DNA from: Rhodospirillales bacterium
GTDB lineage: Bacteria > Pseudomonadota > Alphaproteobacteria > Rhodospirillales > Defluviicoccaceae
Length of the DNA stretch: 53,781 nt
Reading direction: 5' to 3'
NCBI GenBank assembly: GCA_007694935.1
Contig: REES01000086.1
Span: forward strand, 1-53,781
Positions 25,726 through 37,197 of this stretch are shown piece after piece. Position 1 is the stretch's first letter. Every line of letters begins with the position of its first letter. The notes beneath the pieces are model-generated. The model did not search any database, was not told where the DNA came from, and saw only the letters and a program-made list of their open reading frames with translations. The translations under genes and the position numbers were made by a program.

Positions 25726-28539
25726 TTATCCCGTCGTGCCCAGTCCGCTGGCGATCGCGCTCAACGTCAGCAGGAGCTGGGATTCCAGGTCCTGGACCAG
25801 ACGATCATTGCCGGCAACCCGCTGCTTGCGCCACTGGCGCAAGATCTCAACTTGCTGAAGGTGAAGCGGGCGCAGGCCTTCCCGGCGCAGGTTCAAGGTC
25901 GCATGGATGCGCGGGCGCCGTTCGGCTAGCGGGCCACCGAAGATGAGCTCCAGCGCCTGTTCGGTCTTCTGGAACTCTGCTTGGATCAGCTCCATGAAGC
26001 GTTCACGGATCGTCTCGTCTTCTACAAGGCTGGCGTAGACCGCCATGATCTCGGGGTCGGCGGCGGCGAGGCTGCTGGCGGCACTGCTGACCACGTACCG
26101 CAGGGGCGGCCAGTCGAAGGCATGCCGGCGCAGCATCTCAAATGCGTCCGGGTCCTCTGCCCGCAGCCGGAGGAGAGCAGTGCCGACTCCATACCAGCCG
26201 GACAGAATGAAGCGCGACTGACTCCAGCTGAACACCCACGGGATTGCCCTCAGGTCGGCAAGCGTACGTTGTGCGGTTCGGCGCACCGGTCGCGAGCCGA
26301 TCCGGCTGGACTCGATGGCGTCGATCGGCGTGGCCTGCGTCCAGAAGACAAGAAAGCCCTCCGTCCCAAGAAGCCCCTGGAAGGCCGCCCGACTCCACTC
26401 CGCGAGACGATCCATGAGCGGGGCCAGTTGTTGCTTGAGGTCATCCCCGTTGCCCTTGCGGGCATGTCTGAGGGTGACGGCGGTGGTCCCGGCGAGCAGG
26501 AGCTCGAGGTTGTGCGCCGCGGTGATGCGGTTGGCATATTTTTGGCCAATGACTTCGCCTTGCTCGGTCAGGCGGAGATCGCCGTTCAGCGCACCGGCCG
26601 GCAGGGCATTGAGGAACCGGTGGGTCGGACCGGCACCCCGACTCGTGGTCCCGCCGCGTCCGTGGAAGAAGCGTATTCGGACCCCCGCGGCGCGGCCAAC
26701 GGCGGCCATCTCGTCCTGAGCCCGATAGATATTCCAGAGACTTGCTATAGTGCCGCCATCCTTGTTGCTGTCGCTGTACCCGACCATGACCTGCTGCACG
26801 GGACGGTCGAGACCGTCGACCCGCGCCTGATGAGCGAGCGACCGGCGGGTCAGCGGGTGGTCGAGGAAAACTCGCAGGATCCCGGGCGCGCGCCTAAGGT
26901 CTTCGATGGTCTCGAACAGGGGCACGATCGGCATCTGGCAGACGAAGCCGTCCGTCCGCTCGGTCACGAGGCCCGCTTCCCGCGCAAGGACATAGACGAC
27001 AAGGAGATCGGAGAGGCTCCGGGTCATGCTGATGATCAGCGAGCCGAGCCCGTCGCGGCCGTGGGCCCGGATGTGCTCGCTGATCAGACGATAGCAGCTG
27101 AGGACGGCATCGGCTTCGGGGCCCACGCTCACGTCAGAGCGTGCGAACGGTCGAAGGGAGTTCAGCTCGGCGCTGAGCAGGTCGATCCGCCTCTCTTCGG
27201 TCCATTGCGGAAACGGCGTGCCCTTCCATCCGGCCGCGGCCAGAAGCTGGTCCATTGCGCGGTCGTGGAACTGACTGTTCTGGCGGATGTCGAGCTTGGC
27301 CAGATGAAAACCGAACGTCCGCACCACGTCCAGGACGGGCGCGACTTCGGCATCCGCCAACCGTTGTGCGCCGGTCTCCGCCAGCAACTTGTAGAGTGCG
27401 GAAAGGTCATCGCTCAACTCCGCGGCCGTGCCGTAGCGGTTCGGATCCGCTTGCAGGCCACCACCGACAGGCGCGTCCGCATCAACCGGGAGGCGGGCGA
27501 TCATCAGGTTGACGATGTGTCTCCAGGGCTCGTCGGGGTTTCGATCCGTGGCGCGCTGGCCACGTTCGCCAAGTCGCTGGGCCACATCCGCGATCCAACC
27601 GGTCAAGGCTGCGGGAGGGGTCTGCAGCCGGTCGGACAGGCTGAGGTGCCGGGCCAGTTTCAGCAGCTTTTCGTGGATCAGGGAGAGCGACTGGGAGCGG
27701 AGTTCGCGCAAGGTGGCGGCGGTCACGTCGGCTGTCACGAACGGATGGCCGTCCCGGTCACCGCCCACCCAATCGCCGAAAGACACGCGCGGTCGACGGC
27801 GGGCATCCTGGAGAAGCGCCGGCTCGAAGCCCGCAGCGCTCCAGGCCTGCCGGAGCCGGCGGTCGACCACCGGGAACACCTCCGGGAACACGTTGCGCAG
27901 GTAGTGAACGACGTTGCGCAGTTCCGCGGCCACGTCCGGCTTCTCGAGGAAGATCTCCCCCGTGCGCCACAGCCGCTCAAGAAGCACCTTGATCCCCTCG
28001 CGGATCTCGTCCTGTTCCGCTGAGGTGTACATGGTGTTCTCGCGCTTCAGCAGCTGCAGGTAGAGTTCCCGATGGTGCTCGAGCACCGTCTGCCGCTTGG
28101 CCTCGGTCGGGTGAGCCGTCAGCACCGGCTCCACCTTCGTCTCCGGCAGGGCGGCGGCAATCTCGCCGCCGGTCAGGCCGAGGGCCTTCAATTGGGCGAA
28201 CTGGTCCTCCCAGGAGCCCGGATCCTCGACCAGCCGACCTGCTGCCTGCAGAGCCCGCCGATTCTGGGCGATCGCGTTCTCCTCCACCATGGCCAGCAAC
28301 TGGAACCAGATGCAGTACGCCTGGGTGAGGCGCGTGGACAGCGTCAGGTCGCCGAGGCCGCTCAAGTCCCGGGCGCCATCCGCGCCCGGCAGCGCGCGGG
28401 CCATGTCGTGCTCACCGATCTCATGCAGAACGTCGCGAAAACAAGCGGTGAGGAAAGCGAGATCGCGGTCGACTTTGGCAAGGTGGCCGAGTGAGGCCGA
28501 TGTTGAGAATTCCTGATCCACGTTCCCCGAATCGCGCAC
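25726..28539 (-). CDS. ppc: Phosphoenolpyruvate carboxylase
   Basis: PEP carboxylase adds bicarbonate to PEP to give oxaloacetate, refilling the TCA cycle. The 937-residue product has the hallmark motifs in order: VLTAHPTEAKRQTVLEHHRE with the catalytic His (about residue 143), FGDWVGGDRDGHPFVTADVT, VMVGYSDSNKDGGTIASLWN, and the glycine-rich FFHGRGGTTSRGAGPTHRFL. The C-terminus, SAIASGLGTTG, matches the family end. All nearby candidate starts are GTG. I chose 28539, preceded by a GGGGGG run, over 28611, which lacks a binding site, but the start is uncertain. The gene is bracketed by duplicated junction sequences from the betT-cspA-helicase region, suggesting it sits in a rearranged segment. 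Confidence 0.95.
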   Translation of the reverse strand: MRDSGNVDQEFSTSASLGHLAKVDRDLAFLTACFRDVLHEIGEHDMARALPGADGARDLSGLGDLTLSTRLTQAYCIWFQLLAMVEENAIAQNRRALQAAGRLVEDPGSWEDQFAQLKALGLTGGEIAAALPETKVEPVLTAHPTEAKRQTVLEHHRELYLQLLKRENTMYTSAEQDEIREGIKVLLERLWRTGEIFLEKPDVAAELRNVVHYLRNVFPEVFPVVDRRLRQAWSAAGFEPALLQDARRRPRVSFGDWVGGDRDGHPFVTADVTAATLRELRSQSLSLIHEKLLKLARHLSLSDRLQTPPAALTGWIADVAQRLGERGQRATDRNPDEPWRHIVNLMIARLPVDADAPVGGGLQADPNRYGTAAELSDDLSALYKLLAETGAQRLADAEVAPVLDVVRTFGFHLAKLDIRQNSQFHDRAMDQLLAAAGWKGTPFPQWTEERRIDLLSAELNSLRPFARSDVSVGPEADAVLSCYRLISEHIRAHGRDGLGSLIISMTRSLSDLLVVYVLAREAGLVTERTDGFVCQMPIVPLFETIEDLRRAPGILRVFLDHPLTRRSLAHQARVDGLDRPVQQVMVGYSDSNKDGGTIASLWNIYRAQDEMAAVGRAAGVRIRFFHGRGGTTSRGAGPTHRFLNALPAGALNGDLRLTEQGEVIGQKYANRITAAHNLELLLAGTTAVTLRHARKGNGDDLKQQLAPLMDRLAEWSRAAFQGLLGTEGFLVFWTQATPIDAIESSRIGSRPVRRTAQRTLADLRAIPWVFSWSQSRFILSGWYGVGTALLRLRAEDPDAFEMLRRHAFDWPPLRYVVSSAASSLAAADPEIMAVYASLVEDETIRERFMELIQAEFQKTEQALELIFGGPLAERRPRIHATLNLRREGLRPLHLQQVEILRQWRKQRVAGNDRLVQDLESQLLLTLSAIASGLGTTG

Positions 28540-28974
28540 CTTCGTAGCCCCCCGCTCGCAAAATGTCCGTTCCAAGCGCCTAATCCGGCAGGGCGTTGGC
28601 AACGCCTTCACGCCGCAAAAGCATCGGGGGAAATGGTGAGGCGGCCGGGCGCTGACAAGATGCAGGGGACGAAATCGTTATACGCCGAGCCCGGCTGTTT
28701 GGCTCTCTATTGTCGCCGCGCAGACCCAAACGGGGCCGCCCGGGGGGCAGGATTGACCAGAGCAAGACACCGGCGCGGTGCGCGCAGGCGGGCGGTCATC
28801 GTTCACGTGTGGTGGGCGCCTGCTGCGGGGCAAGCCTGCGGAGCTGTTCTGTCGCGAACGCGCCGTGCGCATCTTGACTTCAGACTCGACGTGTAGCGCG
28901 AGTATCGCTGATGACAGCTTGCTCGCCGCCATCAAGCAAGGCCTCGCCACCTCGACTAACCCGTAGTACGGAAT
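28540..28974. other. Upstream region of ppc, no gene seen
   Basis: This stretch of over 400 bases lies between the ppc start and the betT relic. Short frames on both strands show no domains, no ribosome binding sites and no similarity to betT upstream of its last 125 bases. It probably contains the ppc promoter, but I could not identify the boxes with confidence. Confidence 0.4.
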
Positions 28975-31099: not shown

Positions 31100-31519
31100 T
31101 CAGTCGGGGTCGCACATGCCGAAGGCACGAAGCCTGGCCACGTAGCGGGCCTTGTGACGCCGCCGCCATGCCGGCAGATCCCACGGCTCGGAGCCGGCCT
31201 GAACCCAGGGCTGGGGCATGAACACCTGCGCCGTCATCGTGCCGCCGCAGCGAACCAGCACCGCCAGCCGATCGAGGCGGTAGTCCTCCCCCTCGAACCG
31301 CCGCAGGCGATCTTGATCATGCGCATCAAGCCCCGAGACCAGGATACCCGCGACGGCGGCGGCCGGATCCGCAACCAGGATCGGGTACGACGCGCCGGCC
31401 CGGACCATCCGCCGATAGCCGTTCAACCGCGCTGGCCGCGGCCGATCCGGGGGCCTTCGGCCCAGGACGCAGGCCAGCACGTCCCGGTCCATCAGGGTGC
31501 CGTAGAAGAAGAAGTCCAC
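31100..31519 (-). CDS. Gamma-glutamylcyclotransferase-like (AIG2/GGCT fold) protein
   Basis: The 139-residue product has the GGCT fold: FFFYGTLMDRDV with the YGxL substrate loop at the N-terminus, LNGYRRMVRAGASYPILV, AGILVSGLDAHDQDRLRRFE with the catalytic Glu in RFEGEDYRL, and a conserved C-terminal Tyr/Arg helix. Members cyclise gamma-glutamyl amines or amino acids to 5-oxoproline. The exact substrate is not predictable. GTG 31519 is preferred because it directly precedes the conserved FFFYGTLMD and follows the previous stop by ten bases. The tight spacing suggests it belongs to the galU operon, although its function has no obvious link to UDP-sugars. Confidence 0.87.
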   Translation of the reverse strand: MDFFFYGTLMDRDVLACVLGRRPPDRPRPARLNGYRRMVRAGASYPILVADPAAAVAGILVSGLDAHDQDRLRRFEGEDYRLDRLAVLVRCGGTMTAQVFMPQPWVQAGSEPWDLPAWRRRHKARYVARLRAFGMCDPD

Positions 31520-31529
31520 GCCGTATCGG

Positions 31530-34277
31530 CTACCCCGTCGGGCCGGCAAAGTCGGCGGCCGTGGTCACCCCGCTGGCACGAAGCTCTTGTGCCAGCGCTG
31601 CCACCTGCCGATCCAGGCCCGGCCCGTCGGCCGCCTCGCAGCGCCCAACCAGCACCGGCTGGGTGTTGGACGCCCGCAGCAGCCACCAGCCGTCCGGCCC
31701 TGTGACACGCACGCCATCCACCTCGTCCACCCGGAGGCTGTTGGCATTGTCCCGCAGGCGCGCCCGAACCTCGTCGATCACCGCGAACTTGCGATCATCG
31801 GGGCAATCGATGCGGATTTCCGGCGTGTTGACCATGACCGGCAGGGCGTTCTTCATGTCGGCCAGCGACCGGTCCGAGCCCGCCAGGATCGCCAGCAGCC
31901 GCACCGCGGCATAGAGCGCATCGTCGAAGCCGTAGTAGCGGTGGGCGAAGAAGATGTGGCCGCTCATCTCCCCGGCCAGCGGCGCGCCGGTCTCCGCCAT
32001 CAGGGACTTGATCAGCGAGTGCCCGGTGCGGCTCATCACCGGCTGGCCGCCCATGCGGGTGATCTCGTCGAAGAACACTTGGCTCGACTTCACGTCGGCG
32101 ATCACCGTAGCACCCGGGCAATCGGCCAGCACCGGCCCGGCCAGAATCACCAGGAGCTGGTCACCCCACAGCACCCGCCCCAGGTGATCGACCACCCCGA
32201 TCCGGTCGCCGTCCCCATCCAGGGCGATGCCGAGGTCGCATCCTTCGCTCGCCACCACCTCCTTGAGCTGGGCCAGATTGGCCTCCACCGTCGGGTCCGG
32301 GTGGTGGGCGGGAAACCGCCCGTCGACGCGATCGTTGATCAGGACGTGCCGCCCCGGCAGGTTGCGGCAGAGCTTCTGCAACACCGCCGCCGCCGCGCCG
32401 TTGCCGGGGTCCCAGGCGACGCTGAGCGGCCGTCCGGATGCTGCGTCCTGAGCCAGGCGGGCCACGTAGGCATCATCGATGGCAGCGTCCTGCCATCGGC
32501 CGCGGCCGGAGACGAACTCCCCGGATCGGGCCAACCGGCCAAGCGCCTGGATGTCGCCGCCGAAGAACGAGCGCCCGCCCAGGGTCATCTTGATGCCGTT
32601 GTATTCGGGCGGGTTGTGCGACCCGGTCACGGACATCCCTGCGTCCGCACCCAGGTACTTGGTGGCGAAGTAGAGCATGGGGGTCGGGGCCAGGCCGATC
32701 CGATGCACGGTCATGCCCCCGTCGACGAGGCCGTCCACCAGCGTCCGCTCCAGCAGGGGCGAGGTCAGCCGGCCATCATAGCCAACGGCAACGGTCTGTT
32801 TGTCCTGCTTGCGGGCCAGCGTGGCGAATGCCCGGCCGACGGCATAGACGTCTTCGACCGTGAGGGTATCGCCGACGATGCCACGGATGTCGTATTCGCG
32901 GAGGATGCTGGGGTGCATCCGGGCGGGGCCATAGACCACGGTCCTGGCGGCCGGACCGCTGGTCGGCGCCAGGATGGGACGGCCGACGCTCACGTAGGTG
33001 AACCCGGCCGCCGCCATCTCCGCCGGCTCGTAGACGTTGCGGAGATCGACCATCACCGGCGCCTTGAGCAGGCTCTTGACCCGGTCCAGGTCAAGCGCGC
33101 GGAACTCGTTCCATTCGGTCAGAATGGCGACGGCATCGGCGTCTTCCAGGCAACCATAGGCATCGTCGCACCAGGTGACGCCTTGCAGCAGCGCCTTGGC
33201 CTCGTGCATGCCCTCCGGATCGAACGCCCGGACCTGCGCGCCGGCCTGCTGCAAAGCGGGGACGATGCCGAGGCTCGGAGCATCGCGCATGTCATCGGTA
33301 TTGGGCTTGAAGGTGAGACCCAGCACGGCGATGGTCTTGCCGGCGACGGAGCCGCCACAGGTCGCGATGATCTTCTCCGCCATGTGTTGCTTGCGCCGGT
33401 CGTTGATGTCCACCACCGTCTCGATGATGCGGACCGGGCTGCCGGCATCCCGGGCGGTACGGGTGAGCGCCAGGGTGTCCTTGGGAAAGCAAGAGCCGCC
33501 GTATCCGGGGCCGGCGTGCAGAAACTTGCGACCGATGCGGCCGTCCAGGCCGATGCCCCGGGCAACGTCATGGACGTCGGCGCCCACCCGCTCGCACAGG
33601 TCCGCCATCTCGTTGATAAAGGTGATCTTGGTGGCGAGGAAAGCGTTGGCTGCGTACTTGATCAGCTCCGACGAGGTGCGGGAGGTGAAGACGATGGGGG
33701 TCTCGATCAGGTACAGCACCCGATAGAGCTGGCGCATCACCTCCCTGGCGCGTTCGCTGTCGGTGCCGATCACCACCCGGTCGGGGCGCATGAAGTCGTT
33801 GATCGCCGACCCCTCGCGCAGGAATTCCGGGTTGGACACCACGTCGAAATCGGTGTCCGGGCGGAACTGGCGGATCAGTCGCTCCACCTCATCCCCGGTG
33901 CCCACGGGGACCGTCGACTTGTTGACGACCACGGTATAGCCGTCCATGGCCTCCGCGATCTCCTTGGCGGCGGCGAATACATAGGAGAGGTCGGCATGGC
34001 CATCGCCCCGCCGACTCGGGGTGCCGACGGCAATGAACACGGCATCCATTCCCTTCACCGCGGCAGTCAGGTCGGTGGAGAAGCGGAGCCGCCCAGCCTG
34101 GACGTTGCCGGCCACCAGGGCCTCGAGGCCCGGTTCGTAAATCGGAATCTCGCCCCGGCGCAACCGGTCGATCTTGGCGGCATCCTTGTCGACACAGGTC
34201 ACGTTCACGCCGAATTCGGAGAAACACGCCCCGGAAACCAGTCCCACGTATCCGGAGCCGATCATTGCGATGTCCAT
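31530..34277 (-). CDS. Fusion of UDP-glucose 6-dehydrogenase and phosphomannomutase/phosphoglucomutase
   Basis: One uninterrupted frame of 915 codons encodes two complete enzymes. Residues 1 to about 435 are UDP-glucose 6-dehydrogenase (Ugd): the NAD fold MDIAMIGSGYVGLVSGACFS, FIAVGTPS, the catalytic cysteine in GPGYGGSCFPKD (Cys263), and LTFKPNTDDMRDAPSLG. A linker of about 20 residues leads to Met454, where an AlgC/ManB-type alpha-D-phosphohexomutase starts: MHPSILREYDIRGIVGD, the phosphoserine loop VTGSHNPPEYNGIK (Ser553), the metal loop DGDGDR (687-692), GEMSGHIFF (769-777) and RASNTQPVLVGRCEA near the end. All key residues of both enzymes are present. The mutase half has an ATG but no ribosome binding site before it. 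It lies 18 bases after galU, which makes the intermediate substrate UDP-glucose. Confidence 0.93.
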   Translation of the reverse strand: MDIAMIGSGYVGLVSGACFSEFGVNVTCVDKDAAKIDRLRRGEIPIYEPGLEALVAGNVQAGRLRFSTDLTAAVKGMDAVFIAVGTPSRRGDGHADLSYVFAAAKEIAEAMDGYTVVVNKSTVPVGTGDEVERLIRQFRPDTDFDVVSNPEFLREGSAINDFMRPDRVVIGTDSERAREVMRQLYRVLYLIETPIVFTSRTSSELIKYAANAFLATKITFINEMADLCERVGADVHDVARGIGLDGRIGRKFLHAGPGYGGSCFPKDTLALTRTARDAGSPVRIIETVVDINDRRKQHMAEKIIATCGGSVAGKTIAVLGLTFKPNTDDMRDAPSLGIVPALQQAGAQVRAFDPEGMHEAKALLQGVTWCDDAYGCLEDADAVAILTEWNEFRALDLDRVKSLLKAPVMVDLRNVYEPAEMAAAGFTYVSVGRPILAPTSGPAARTVVYGPARMHPSILREYDIRGIVGDTLTVEDVYAVGRAFATLARKQDKQTVAVGYDGRLTSPLLERTLVDGLVDGGMTVHRIGLAPTPMLYFATKYLGADAGMSVTGSHNPPEYNGIKMTLGGRSFFGGDIQALGRLARSGEFVSGRGRWQDAAIDDAYVARLAQDAASGRPLSVAWDPGNGAAAAVLQKLCRNLPGRHVLINDRVDGRFPAHHPDPTVEANLAQLKEVVASEGCDLGIALDGDGDRIGVVDHLGRVLWGDQLLVILAGPVLADCPGATVIADVKSSQVFFDEITRMGGQPVMSRTGHSLIKSLMAETGAPLAGEMSGHIFFAHRYYGFDDALYAAVRLLAILAGSDRSLADMKNALPVMVNTPEIRIDCPDDRKFAVIDEVRARLRDNANSLRVDEVDGVRVTGPDGWWLLRASNTQPVLVGRCEAADGPGLDRQVAALAQELRASGVTTAADFAGPTG

Positions 34278-34295
34278 GGCACAACCCCTCTGTGA

Positions 34296-35240
34296 TCAGC
34301 GGCTGGCCACCGCCTGCAACGGCGGCTCCGATGCCAGGGCATCACGGCGTTCGGCAGCGGGCCGATCTTCGGCACCGTACCTGGCAAGCATTGTCCGCAC
34401 CCGGTCCGCCATGTCCGGACGTTCGAGCGCGAACGCTACGTTCGCCTCCAGGTACCCGACCTTGCTGCCGCAATCGAACCGGCGGCCGACAAACCGGTAG
34501 CCATGGAACGGCACCAAGCCGATGGACTTCGCCATGGCGTCAGTCAACTGGATCTCGTTGCCGGTGCCGCGCTCCTGATTCTCCAACACGGTCAGCACGA
34601 TCGGCTGAAGGATATAGCGCCCGATGATGCCGAGACGGGACGGCGCCATCGCCGGCTCCGGCTTCTCCACCAGCGCCCGGGCGGTGACCAGGCGATCCAT
34701 TGTCTTGCTGGGGTCGAGGATGCCATAGCGCCGGGTCTCCTCCGCCGTAACCTCCTCGATCGCAACCATGTTGCCGCCGACCTCCCGGTGGGCCTCGACC
34801 ATCTGCTTGAGGCAGCCCGGCCGGTTGAGGATCAGGTCATCGGCCAGGAGAACGGCAAACGGCTCGTCGGCGATGAAATTGCGGGCGCACCAAACCGCGT
34901 GGCCGAGGCCAAGGGGCTCCTGCTGCCTCGTGTAGGCGATGTGCCCCGGCGGCGGCATCCATTCGAGAACCGAGTCGAGCACATCCGTTTCGTTTCGGGC
35001 CCTGAGTGCCAGTTCCAGTTCGATGCTGTGGTCGAAGTGGTTCTCGATGGCGCTTTTCGCCCGGCCGGTAACGAAAATGAACTCCTCGATACCCGCCTCC
35101 CGTGCTTCTTCCACGGCGTACTGGATCAACGGCTTGTCCACCACCGGCAGCATTTCCTTGGGCATGGCCTTGGTGGCCGGCAGAAACCGGGTGCCGAGCC
35201 CGGCAACGGGGAACACGGCCTTGCGCAACGGTTTGGGCAT
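34296..35240 (-). CDS. galU: UTP-glucose-1-phosphate uridylyltransferase
   Basis: GalU makes UDP-glucose from UTP and glucose 1-phosphate. The 314-residue product has the nucleotidyltransferase N-terminus KAVFPVAGLGTRFLPATKAM with KEMLPVVDKPLIQYAVEEA. It continues with FVTGRAKSAIENHFD, QEPLGLGHAVWCAR, FAVLLADDLI, VEKPEPAMAPS and EIQLTDAM, all diagnostic of GalU. The ATG at 35240 has GGAG about six bases upstream, and the in-frame extension before it looks non-coding. The operon is galU, then the Ugd-mutase fusion, then the GGCT-like gene. It supplies UDP-glucose and UDP-glucuronate for polysaccharide or lipid A modification. Confidence 0.96.
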   Translation of the reverse strand: MPKPLRKAVFPVAGLGTRFLPATKAMPKEMLPVVDKPLIQYAVEEAREAGIEEFIFVTGRAKSAIENHFDHSIELELALRARNETDVLDSVLEWMPPPGHIAYTRQQEPLGLGHAVWCARNFIADEPFAVLLADDLILNRPGCLKQMVEAHREVGGNMVAIEEVTAEETRRYGILDPSKTMDRLVTARALVEKPEPAMAPSRLGIIGRYILQPIVLTVLENQERGTGNEIQLTDAMAKSIGLVPFHGYRFVGRRFDCGSKVGYLEANVAFALERPDMADRVRTMLARYGAEDRPAAERRDALASEPPLQAVASR

Positions 35241-35503
35241 GGGGACTCCGCGACTGATCGGGGCGTTTGGCGCAAAATTTGGAAGGGGATCGCGCCTTTG
35301 TGCCACAGGCGGCGCGATGACGCAACCTCCGGCTAATGTCCGCCGGCATTCGTAGCATGAAGACCTTAACAGGATTGTGCTCGCCAACTCGCTCGCCCGG
35401 CAGAACGGGGCGATCCGGCCGGGCGGGGAGCCACCGCTTGTCGCCGGCCGAGGCCGCTGCTACCGTTGATATTTCTCGAGATGTAGCCGGGTTGACCGCA
35501 CGG

Positions 35504-35983
35504 ATGAGCGAGCCCTTCAGCCATTTCGACGCCGACGGCAACGCGGTGATGGTGGATGTCTCCGACAAGGCGGTGACCGATCGGAGCGCCACGGCCCGGG
35601 CCACGGTGACGATGAACCCGGAGACGCTGGCCCGCATCCGGCAGGGCGGTATCGCCAAGGGCGACGTTTTGGCGGTCGCGCGCTTGGCCGGGATCATGGC
35701 CGCCAAGCGGACGCCAGACCTGATCCCGCTGTGCCACCCGCTGCCGCTGACCGCCGTCGCCCTCGATCTCGTCTGCGACGACGCGGCGAGCGCCGTTCAC
35801 GTCACCGCCAGCTGCCGGCTGAAGGGACGGACCGGCGTCGAGATGGAGGCTCTCACGGCTGCCGCGGTGGCCGCGTTGACGATCTATGACATGTGCAAGG
35901 GGATCGACCGCGGCATGCGCATCGCCGACATCCACCTTACCCACAAATCGGGCGGCCGGTCCGGCACGTTCCAGGGGTCCTGA
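35504..35983 (+). CDS. moaC: Cyclic pyranopterin monophosphate synthase
   Basis: MoaC forms the cyclic pyranopterin from the MoaA product, in the first stage of molybdenum cofactor synthesis. The 159-residue product starts [20 protein letters not shown], then [53 protein letters not shown] and [20 protein letters not shown]. This is the complete MoaC pattern. The ATG at 35504 agrees with the family N-terminus, although its binding site is weak. The stop is two bases from the moeA start, indicating one transcript. The gene is divergent from galU. Confidence 0.95.
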
Positions 35984-35985
35984 AG

Positions 35986-37197
35986 ATGCTGGCGGTGGCC
36001 GATGCCGTCGCCATGGTTGCCGGTGCGTTCCGCCCGCTGGCCCCGGAACAGATCTCCCTGACCGAGGCGCTGGGGCGTGTCCTCGCTGAAGACGTCGTGG
36101 CACGGGTGAGCCAGCCGCCGGTGGCGGTCTCGGCCATGGACGGTTACGCCGTGGCCTCCGGCAGGGAGGCGGCCATGCCGGCGACCTTCCGCGTCGTCGG
36201 GGAAGCCATGGCGGGGCGTGGGTTTCTCGGCAAGGTGGGGCCCGGCGAGGCCGTCCGCATTGCCACCGGGGCGCCGATCCCCGCGGGCGCCGATACCATC
36301 GTCATCCAGGAAGACACGGATCGTCGAGGCGACAGCGTGACGGTTCGCAGACCACTGTCTCCGGGGCGGTGGATAAGGAAGGCCGGCCTTGACTTTGTCT
36401 CCGGCGATGTGCTGCTGCATGCGGGGCGCACCCTGACCGCCCGGGATGTCGGCCTGCTGGCGGCGATGAACGTCCCCTGGCTACGGGTTCGGCGCAAGCC
36501 CAGGATCGCCGTGCTAGCCACCGGCGACGAACTGGTCATGCCGGGGGAAAGCCCGGGACCGGATCAGATCGTTGCCGCCAACAGCCTTGCGGTTGTCGCT
36601 TGTGTTTGCGCGTTCGGCGGCATTGCCGTCGATCTCGGCATCGCGGTCGACGATCCCTGCGTCCTGGCGGCGGCCATGGCGGGCTGTCGCGGTGCCGACC
36701 TGCTGGTCACCATCGGCGGCGCCTCGGTGGGAGATCGCGATCTGATCGCCCGCACCCTCGGGATCGAGGGGCTGGCCGTGGGGTTCCACAAGGTCGCCAT
36801 GCGTCCCGGCAAACCCTTGATCTTCGGCCGGCTCGACGACGTTCCGGTGCTGGGCCTGCCGGGAAATCCGGTCTCCGCCGGCGTGACCGCGCTGCTGTTC
36901 CTGGCACCGGCCATGGATGCCATGCTCGGCCGGACGGTTGAGACCGGTTCAGCGACGGCCGTCCTGGGCCGCGACCTCGACGCCAATGACGATCGGCAGG
37001 ACTACCTGCGGGCTGCCTTGTCCCGCACGATGGACGGCGATGTGGTGGCGACGCCGTTCTCCCGACAGGACAGCGCCCTGCTGTCCGGGTTCGCCGCCGC
37101 CGACTGCCTGGTGGTCCGCCCCCCCGCTGCAGCGGCCGCCCGTGCCGGCGACCGCGTTCCCATCCTGACCTTCCCGCCGGGCTTGGCCGGCTTTTGA
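35986..37197 (+). CDS. moeA: Molybdopterin molybdenumtransferase
   Basis: MoeA inserts molybdate into adenylated molybdopterin. The 403-residue product has the expected domains: EALGRVLAEDVVARVSQPPV, SAMDGYAVASG, RIATGAPIPAGADTIVIQE, RPGKPLIFGRLDDVPVLGLP and GNPVSAGVTALLFLAPAM. The MPT-binding domain motif GGASVGDRDL is present, as is the C-terminal domain. The start has AGGGG upstream, within the end of moaC. It lies between moaC and cysK in a five-gene plus-strand run. Confidence 0.95.
   Translation: MLAVADAVAMVAGAFRPLAPEQISLTEALGRVLAEDVVARVSQPPVAVSAMDGYAVASGREAAMPATFRVVGEAMAGRGFLGKVGPGEAVRIATGAPIPAGADTIVIQEDTDRRGDSVTVRRPLSPGRWIRKAGLDFVSGDVLLHAGRTLTARDVGLLAAMNVPWLRVRRKPRIAVLATGDELVMPGESPGPDQIVAANSLAVVACVCAFGGIAVDLGIAVDDPCVLAAAMAGCRGADLLVTIGGASVGDRDLIARTLGIEGLAVGFHKVAMRPGKPLIFGRLDDVPVLGLPGNPVSAGVTALLFLAPAMDAMLGRTVETGSATAVLGRDLDANDDRQDYLRAALSRTMDGDVVATPFSRQDSALLSGFAAADCLVVRPPAAAAARAGDRVPILTFPPGLAGF

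Follow-up and report, generated by a model that had tools for sequence, protein, structure and literature searches.

Why should one reading frame encode two enzymes that are not consecutive in their pathway? The question is raised by a locus on contig REES01000086.1 of a Rhodospirillales bacterium of the Defluviicoccaceae (assembly GCA_007694935.1), of which we analysed a stretch of 53,781 nt, referred to as the window. An initial annotation had described positions 31530–34277 as a frame of 915 codons joining a UDP-glucose dehydrogenase (Ugd) to a phosphoglucomutase/phosphomannomutase (PMM/PGM) and carrying the key residues of both. The coordinates are exact, and the strand, which had been left out, is the minus strand: read from 34277 to 31530, the sequence gives 915 residues uninterrupted by a stop. 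Below, the genome of the window is called G000, and its sister species, the only other genome of the genus in our collection, G001. The gene and its parts are located as follows:

31530..34277, minus strand: ugd::pgmG fusion gene, 915 codons plus stop, predicted product of 98.0 kDa
32979..34277, minus strand: Ugd half, residues 1–433, assigned from Pfam domains, 65–66% identity to UgdG 4a7p (Foldseek) and invariant residues
33489–33491, minus strand: codon of the Ugd catalytic Cys263
32916..32978, minus strand: linker, residues 434–454 (21 codons), partly disordered in the model and under coding constraint between species
32916–32918, minus strand: codon of Met454
31530..32915, minus strand: PgmG half, residues 455–915 plus stop, assigned from NCBIfam NF046027 and 44% identity to 1k35 (Foldseek)
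32619–32621, minus strand: codon of the mutase Ser553
32202–32219, minus strand: DGDGDR loop of the mutase
31656–31676, minus strand: RASNTQP loop of the mutase

Three UDPG_MGDP_dh domains cover residues 1–418, the NAD-binding, central and UDP-binding domains scoring 225.2, 129.3 and 120 bits against Pfam cut-offs of 27, 25.4 and 30, and four PGM_PMM domains, likewise all above their Pfam cut-offs, cover residues 459–896. The linker, previously put at about 20 residues, was found between them at 434–454. The mutase half passes the NCBIfam equivalog model for PgmG (NF046027) both in G000 (677.9 bits versus a cut-off of 600) and in the fusion of the sister species (680.3 versus 600). For the Ugd half, the only NCBIfam model passed is that of the subfamily (TIGR03026, 463 bits versus 189.8), the equivalog models TuaD (558.8 versus 700) and AglM (375.6 versus 670) not being reached. 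Because no NCBIfam Ugd equivalog scored above its cut-off, specificity for UDP-glucose is judged from the similarity to Ugd enzymes of solved structure, and from the identity to UgdG we infer that this half oxidises UDP-glucose with NAD+. In a 48-row alignment, 46 rows of which are relatives read through their own stops for alignment purposes only, Cys263, Lys207, Asn211 and Asp267 of the Ugd half are invariant, as are Ser553, D687, G688, D689, D691, R692, R868, S870, N871 and T872 of the mutase half. We take the cysteine in GGSCFPKD to be the catalytic residue of Ugd, with Lys207, Asn211 and Asp267 as its partners, and Ser553, DGDGDR and RASNT to be the phosphoserine, the metal-binding loop and the phosphate-binding loop of the mutase. 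All key residues named in the initial annotation lie at the positions it gave, and those checked are invariant. The strand opposite the fusion also has an open frame of 902 codons (31587–34295, plus strand), which probably just reflects the GC-rich codon use of the fusion and gives no sign of being a gene.

A frame of this kind could arise from a sequencing or assembly error that deleted a stop codon or merged two genes. Such an error would fit an assembly in 145 contigs (both fusion-bearing genomes are assemblies of about 140) and the presence of two separate genes in all other relatives examined. It does not fit what is seen in another species' genome. At C29:57603-60341, G001 carries a fusion with 90% identity to that of G000, with no stop, the same domains and the same linker length, and the two genes align without gaps over 915 codons. 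Changes are of the synonymous type throughout, with 73/45/359 substitutions at codon positions 1/2/3 across the whole fusion. Within the linker (434–454), the corresponding differences are 4/3/12, with five amino-acid changes, giving a dN of 0.19 and a dS of 1.31, which are rough rates given the short linker; the Ugd and PgmG halves have dN values of 0.045 and 0.068 and dS values of 0.83 and 0.75. No such constraint is present in the last nine residues (907–915), where there are 5/5/7 differences and seven amino-acid changes. Judged by these substitutions, the linker is under selection at the protein level, which is looser than that on the enzyme halves.

The two loci also share their surroundings. 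The neighbouring genes in the window are:

34296..35240, minus strand: galU, 18 bases upstream of the fusion (TIGR01099, 339 bits versus 326.8)
31100..31549, minus strand: gamma-glutamylcyclotransferase-like (GGACT) gene (Pfam PF06094, 53.2 bits versus 22.8)
25726–28611, minus strand: phosphoenolpyruvate carboxylase gene (ppc), with the BCCT transporter on one side and the helicase on the other
35336–35983, plus strand: moaC, molybdenum-cofactor synthesis, beside galU on the opposite strand
35893–37197, plus strand: moeA, molybdenum-cofactor synthesis, kept in the same place in G001

In both species galU, the fusion, the GGACT gene and a helicase gene are syntenic; moeA and cysK flank them beyond galU, and the BCCT transporter lies at the opposite end. 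The equivalent stretch of G001 (L200) showed no ppc. The fusion and galU likely belong to the same operon. Downstream, the GGACT gene has 66% identity to its counterpart, which occupies the equivalent position in G001. The TTG listed as its start gives an overlap of 20 bases with the end of the fusion and may not be the true one. A minus-strand frame at 35366–36103 also matched G001; neither Pfam nor NCBIfam assigns it to a family, and we explain it as a mirror image of the plus-strand gene moaC. Because G001 shares both the fusion and the coding constraint on its linker, an assembly accident is ruled out for practical purposes, and we give it next to no probability. On this comparison we consider the gene a genuine in-frame fusion whose halves both retain their catalytic residues and whose partners are separate in relatives, as initially proposed, and among the genomes examined it is found in one genus only.

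Within the family (11 genomes from 6 genera in the collection), the fusion is present in two genomes, which are the two of this genus. The other nine all have separate ugd and pgmG genes, adjacent in eight and ∼16 kb apart in G010. The initial annotation would have counted it against a fusion if close relatives kept the two genes separate at this locus; such relatives do exist at the family level, but they do not refute it, because the congener shares it. Of the 317 genomes of the order, 316 gave a match. Among the matches listed, 63 have 100 or more residues of both halves within one frame, and only those of G000 and G001 are stop-free, the other 61 containing at least one stop. In the class sample, 375 of 385 genomes gave a match, and in the phylum sample, 397 of 398; the two yielded 24 and 17 such listed matches, with the genome of the window as the only stop-free case in each. 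No further stop-free join of ugd and pgmG was present among the matches listed for the order and the class and phylum samples, which overlap, and in which the two best candidates were scored per genome; fusions that differ strongly in linker, order or divergence could escape such searches. The statement that this is not a standard fusion holds for these groups.

We also compared, at the DNA level, 96 distinct loci in which pgmG comes after ugd, chosen by their likeness to the fusion, a choice that favours in-frame pairs. Both genes share a frame in 61 of them, interrupted by a stop in 59 and open in G000 and G001. Some candidates for additional fusions were rejected. A frame listed with 1471 residues in G024 contained both halves and appeared to be a three-part fusion; in the DNA, a stop of its own terminates ugd, pgmG has an open frame to itself, and the listed length seems to read through stops. 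There is likewise no fusion behind the long frames in G167, G427, G561, G054, G045, G019, G133, G223, G132, G316, G669, G127, G651, G126 and G230; the stretches of G167, G045, G133, G132 and G669 yielded just one of the halves. Directly upstream of the pair, galU is present in 84 of the 90 distinct loci with enough upstream sequence (G000 and G001 included) and was not found upstream in the remaining six. The ancestral arrangement was therefore most likely a galU–ugd–pgmG cluster, to judge from these gene orders. From this state, the stop codon of ugd would have been lost in the ancestor of the genus, turning the short intergenic gap into coding sequence. Since family relatives have pgmG either in the frame of ugd (G006, where a TAG stops it) or in another frame (G003 and G004), a base change and a small indel are both possible routes to this loss.

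Is the product a single chain? Two proteins could still be made, by internal initiation near codon 446–454 or by cleavage of the linker. A start codon is available at position 454, which is ATG in G000 and GTG (Val) in G001, and the linker, being predicted to be disordered, would be accessible to proteases. However, the bases upstream of codon 454 pair with the ribosomal tail at best with −2.7 kcal/mol in both species, compared to −7.6 kcal/mol at the ugd start, −6.1 kcal/mol at the galU start and −4.2 to −12.4 kcal/mol at the pgmG starts of six relatives, assigned as the first in-frame ATG past the stop. This agrees with the earlier remark that the ATG of Met454 has no ribosome-binding site. 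Together with the coding conservation of the linker, the low pairing makes the production of two proteins unlikely. By this measure, the old pgmG start signal seems to have been lost, and one chain of ∼98 kDa would be translated from the ugd start.

An AlphaFold model of the fusion has a mean pLDDT of 89.3 and a pTM of 0.55. The pLDDT is at least 90 for 603 of the 915 residues and between 70 and 90 for another 258, and it falls below 50 at residues 440–448 and 911–915. As modelled, the protein is a pair of confidently predicted enzymes joined by a disordered linker, and the pTM fits two rigid bodies without a fixed mutual relation. The fusion would thus consist of two independently folding enzymes tethered by a flexible linker of ∼20 residues.

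What the pairing could achieve depends on the role of the mutase half. The N-terminal half would oxidise UDP-glucose to UDP-glucuronate, and the C-terminal half would interconvert the 6- and 1-phosphates of glucose and of mannose. The initial annotation had reasoned that the fusion holds together the first and third enzymes of the route from glucose-6-phosphate to UDP-glucuronate, perhaps with GalU bound between them, which would make the route faster or channelled. This argument from order is reasonable because galU is encoded directly upstream, in a cluster of three genes that is conserved. PgmG enzymes may also use glucose phosphate: activity on glucose as well as mannose phosphates is reported for that of S. 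paucimobilis (Videira et al. 2000, cited in PMC4443731).

The complement of mutases in the genome points elsewhere. Three proteins with a PGM_PMM_I match are present in each of G000 and G001. In G000 these are GlmM (610.8 bits versus 447.55), a stand-alone phosphoglucomutase specific for alpha-D-glucose (968.5 bits versus a cut-off of 378) and the fusion. A glucose-specific phosphoglucomutase is even encoded inside the same cluster in some relatives, lying between ugd and pgmG in each of four examined relatives that have a gap of ∼1.6 kb (G024, G054, G223 and G316; L188, L192, L197 and L199), each of which has galU upstream of ugd. With a separate glucose-specific enzyme, glucose-1-phosphate need not depend on PgmG. 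Since GlmM and this enzyme fill the other slots, the fused mutase is, by elimination, the sole candidate phosphomannomutase of a genome whose completeness is rated at 97.6%, so that another such gene could have been missed. G000 further contains the gene of a bifunctional mannose-1-phosphate guanylyltransferase/mannose-6-phosphate isomerase (GMP_PMI, 683.2 bits versus 372.95). As far as homology can tell, the fused mutase may serve the synthesis of GDP-mannose instead of, or besides, that of UDP-glucuronate, and would most likely feed mannose-1-phosphate to the separate GDP-mannose synthase. Besides the fusion, a single Ugd-like protein is listed in G000; it is TviB-like and stays below its model cut-off (480.8 bits versus 592). 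In addition to the separate phosphoglucomutase, the model gives no sign of a fixed packing of the halves, and GalU is outside the fused chain. We consider it quite improbable that the fusion serves to speed up or channel the route to UDP-glucuronate.

The explanation that we prefer, and hold to be very probable from the sequence comparisons, is that neighbouring genes of a galU–ugd–pgmG cluster were fused by loss of a stop, giving one chain with two tethered enzymes, of which the mutase is a likely phosphomannomutase. As its main consequence, a single start site would supply both activities in a fixed 1:1 ratio. This explanation does not require channelling between the halves.

Whether the fusion brought any gain is a separate matter. 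It could be effectively neutral, a chance loss of the stop that was fixed by drift and left both halves working as before. This reading overlaps with our explanation and differs from it solely in selective value. It is in line with a linker predicted to be disordered, with the restriction to one genus and with genes that were already adjacent and in similar orientation. On the other hand, the fusion has been retained since the two species split, at a synonymous divergence of about 0.8, and there is constraint on the length and partly on the sequence of the linker. We see the chances of neutrality as evenly balanced. Selection could also have shaped the fusion as a device at a branch point, the chain setting the ratio of UDP-glucuronate to GDP-mannose for a surface polysaccharide containing both sugars, perhaps with docking of GalU and the GDP-mannose synthase in a small nucleotide-sugar complex. 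We consider this a rather distant prospect. In a survey of metabolic fusions, the settings named for such genes are shared substrates, branch points and complexes, and work is cited in which fusion by itself did not promote channelling (PMC4921024).

Because the partners are not consecutive in the pathway, simple hand-over of a substrate cannot be the reason for the fusion. The locus lends itself as a natural test of the reasons for enzyme fusion in bacterial metabolism, as the ancestral adjacent genes survive in sister genera. It also calls for caution: a fusion need not signal an obvious pathway link, and here the second phosphoglucomutase and the GDP-mannose synthase point in another direction. 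As a ready-made bifunctional protein, it might help in co-producing UDP-glucuronate and GDP-mannose.

No report of a fusion of Ugd with a PMM/PGM was found in the literature searched, which comprised titles and the openings of abstracts, with UniProt and InterPro outside its scope. Within that literature, the pairing in one chain is new and undescribed; both enzymes are well known, and this is not a new system. The closest solved relatives of the N-terminal half are UgdG of Sphingomonas elodea (4a7p; 65–66% identity, target TM-score 0.97 in Foldseek) and BceC (2y0c, 2y0d and 2y0e; 48–49% identity, target TM-scores of 0.89–0.90). The N-terminal half looks like the same enzyme as these, but UgdG (446 residues) and BceC (478 residues) stand alone, whereas the chain described here continues into a mutase. 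The C-terminal half shares its fold and active-site loops with the AlgC-type PMM/PGM of P. aeruginosa (1k35, 44% identity). In the other relatives examined, PgmG/AlgC-type mutases are encoded separately from ugd, whereas the fused one lacks a ribosome-binding site of its own. The unfused arrangement is also seen in Azospirillum, where ugd and pgmG lie side by side, annotated as two genes, in the best 13 plasmid records, all of them from this genus. In origin and logic, the fusion resembles HisNB, which joins the enzymes of the non-consecutive steps 8 and 6 of histidine synthesis, encoded by genes of one operon (PMC1963479). The enzymes differ, and so does the spread, HisNB extending over most gammaproteobacteria and the Ugd–PgmG fusion being seen in a single genus.
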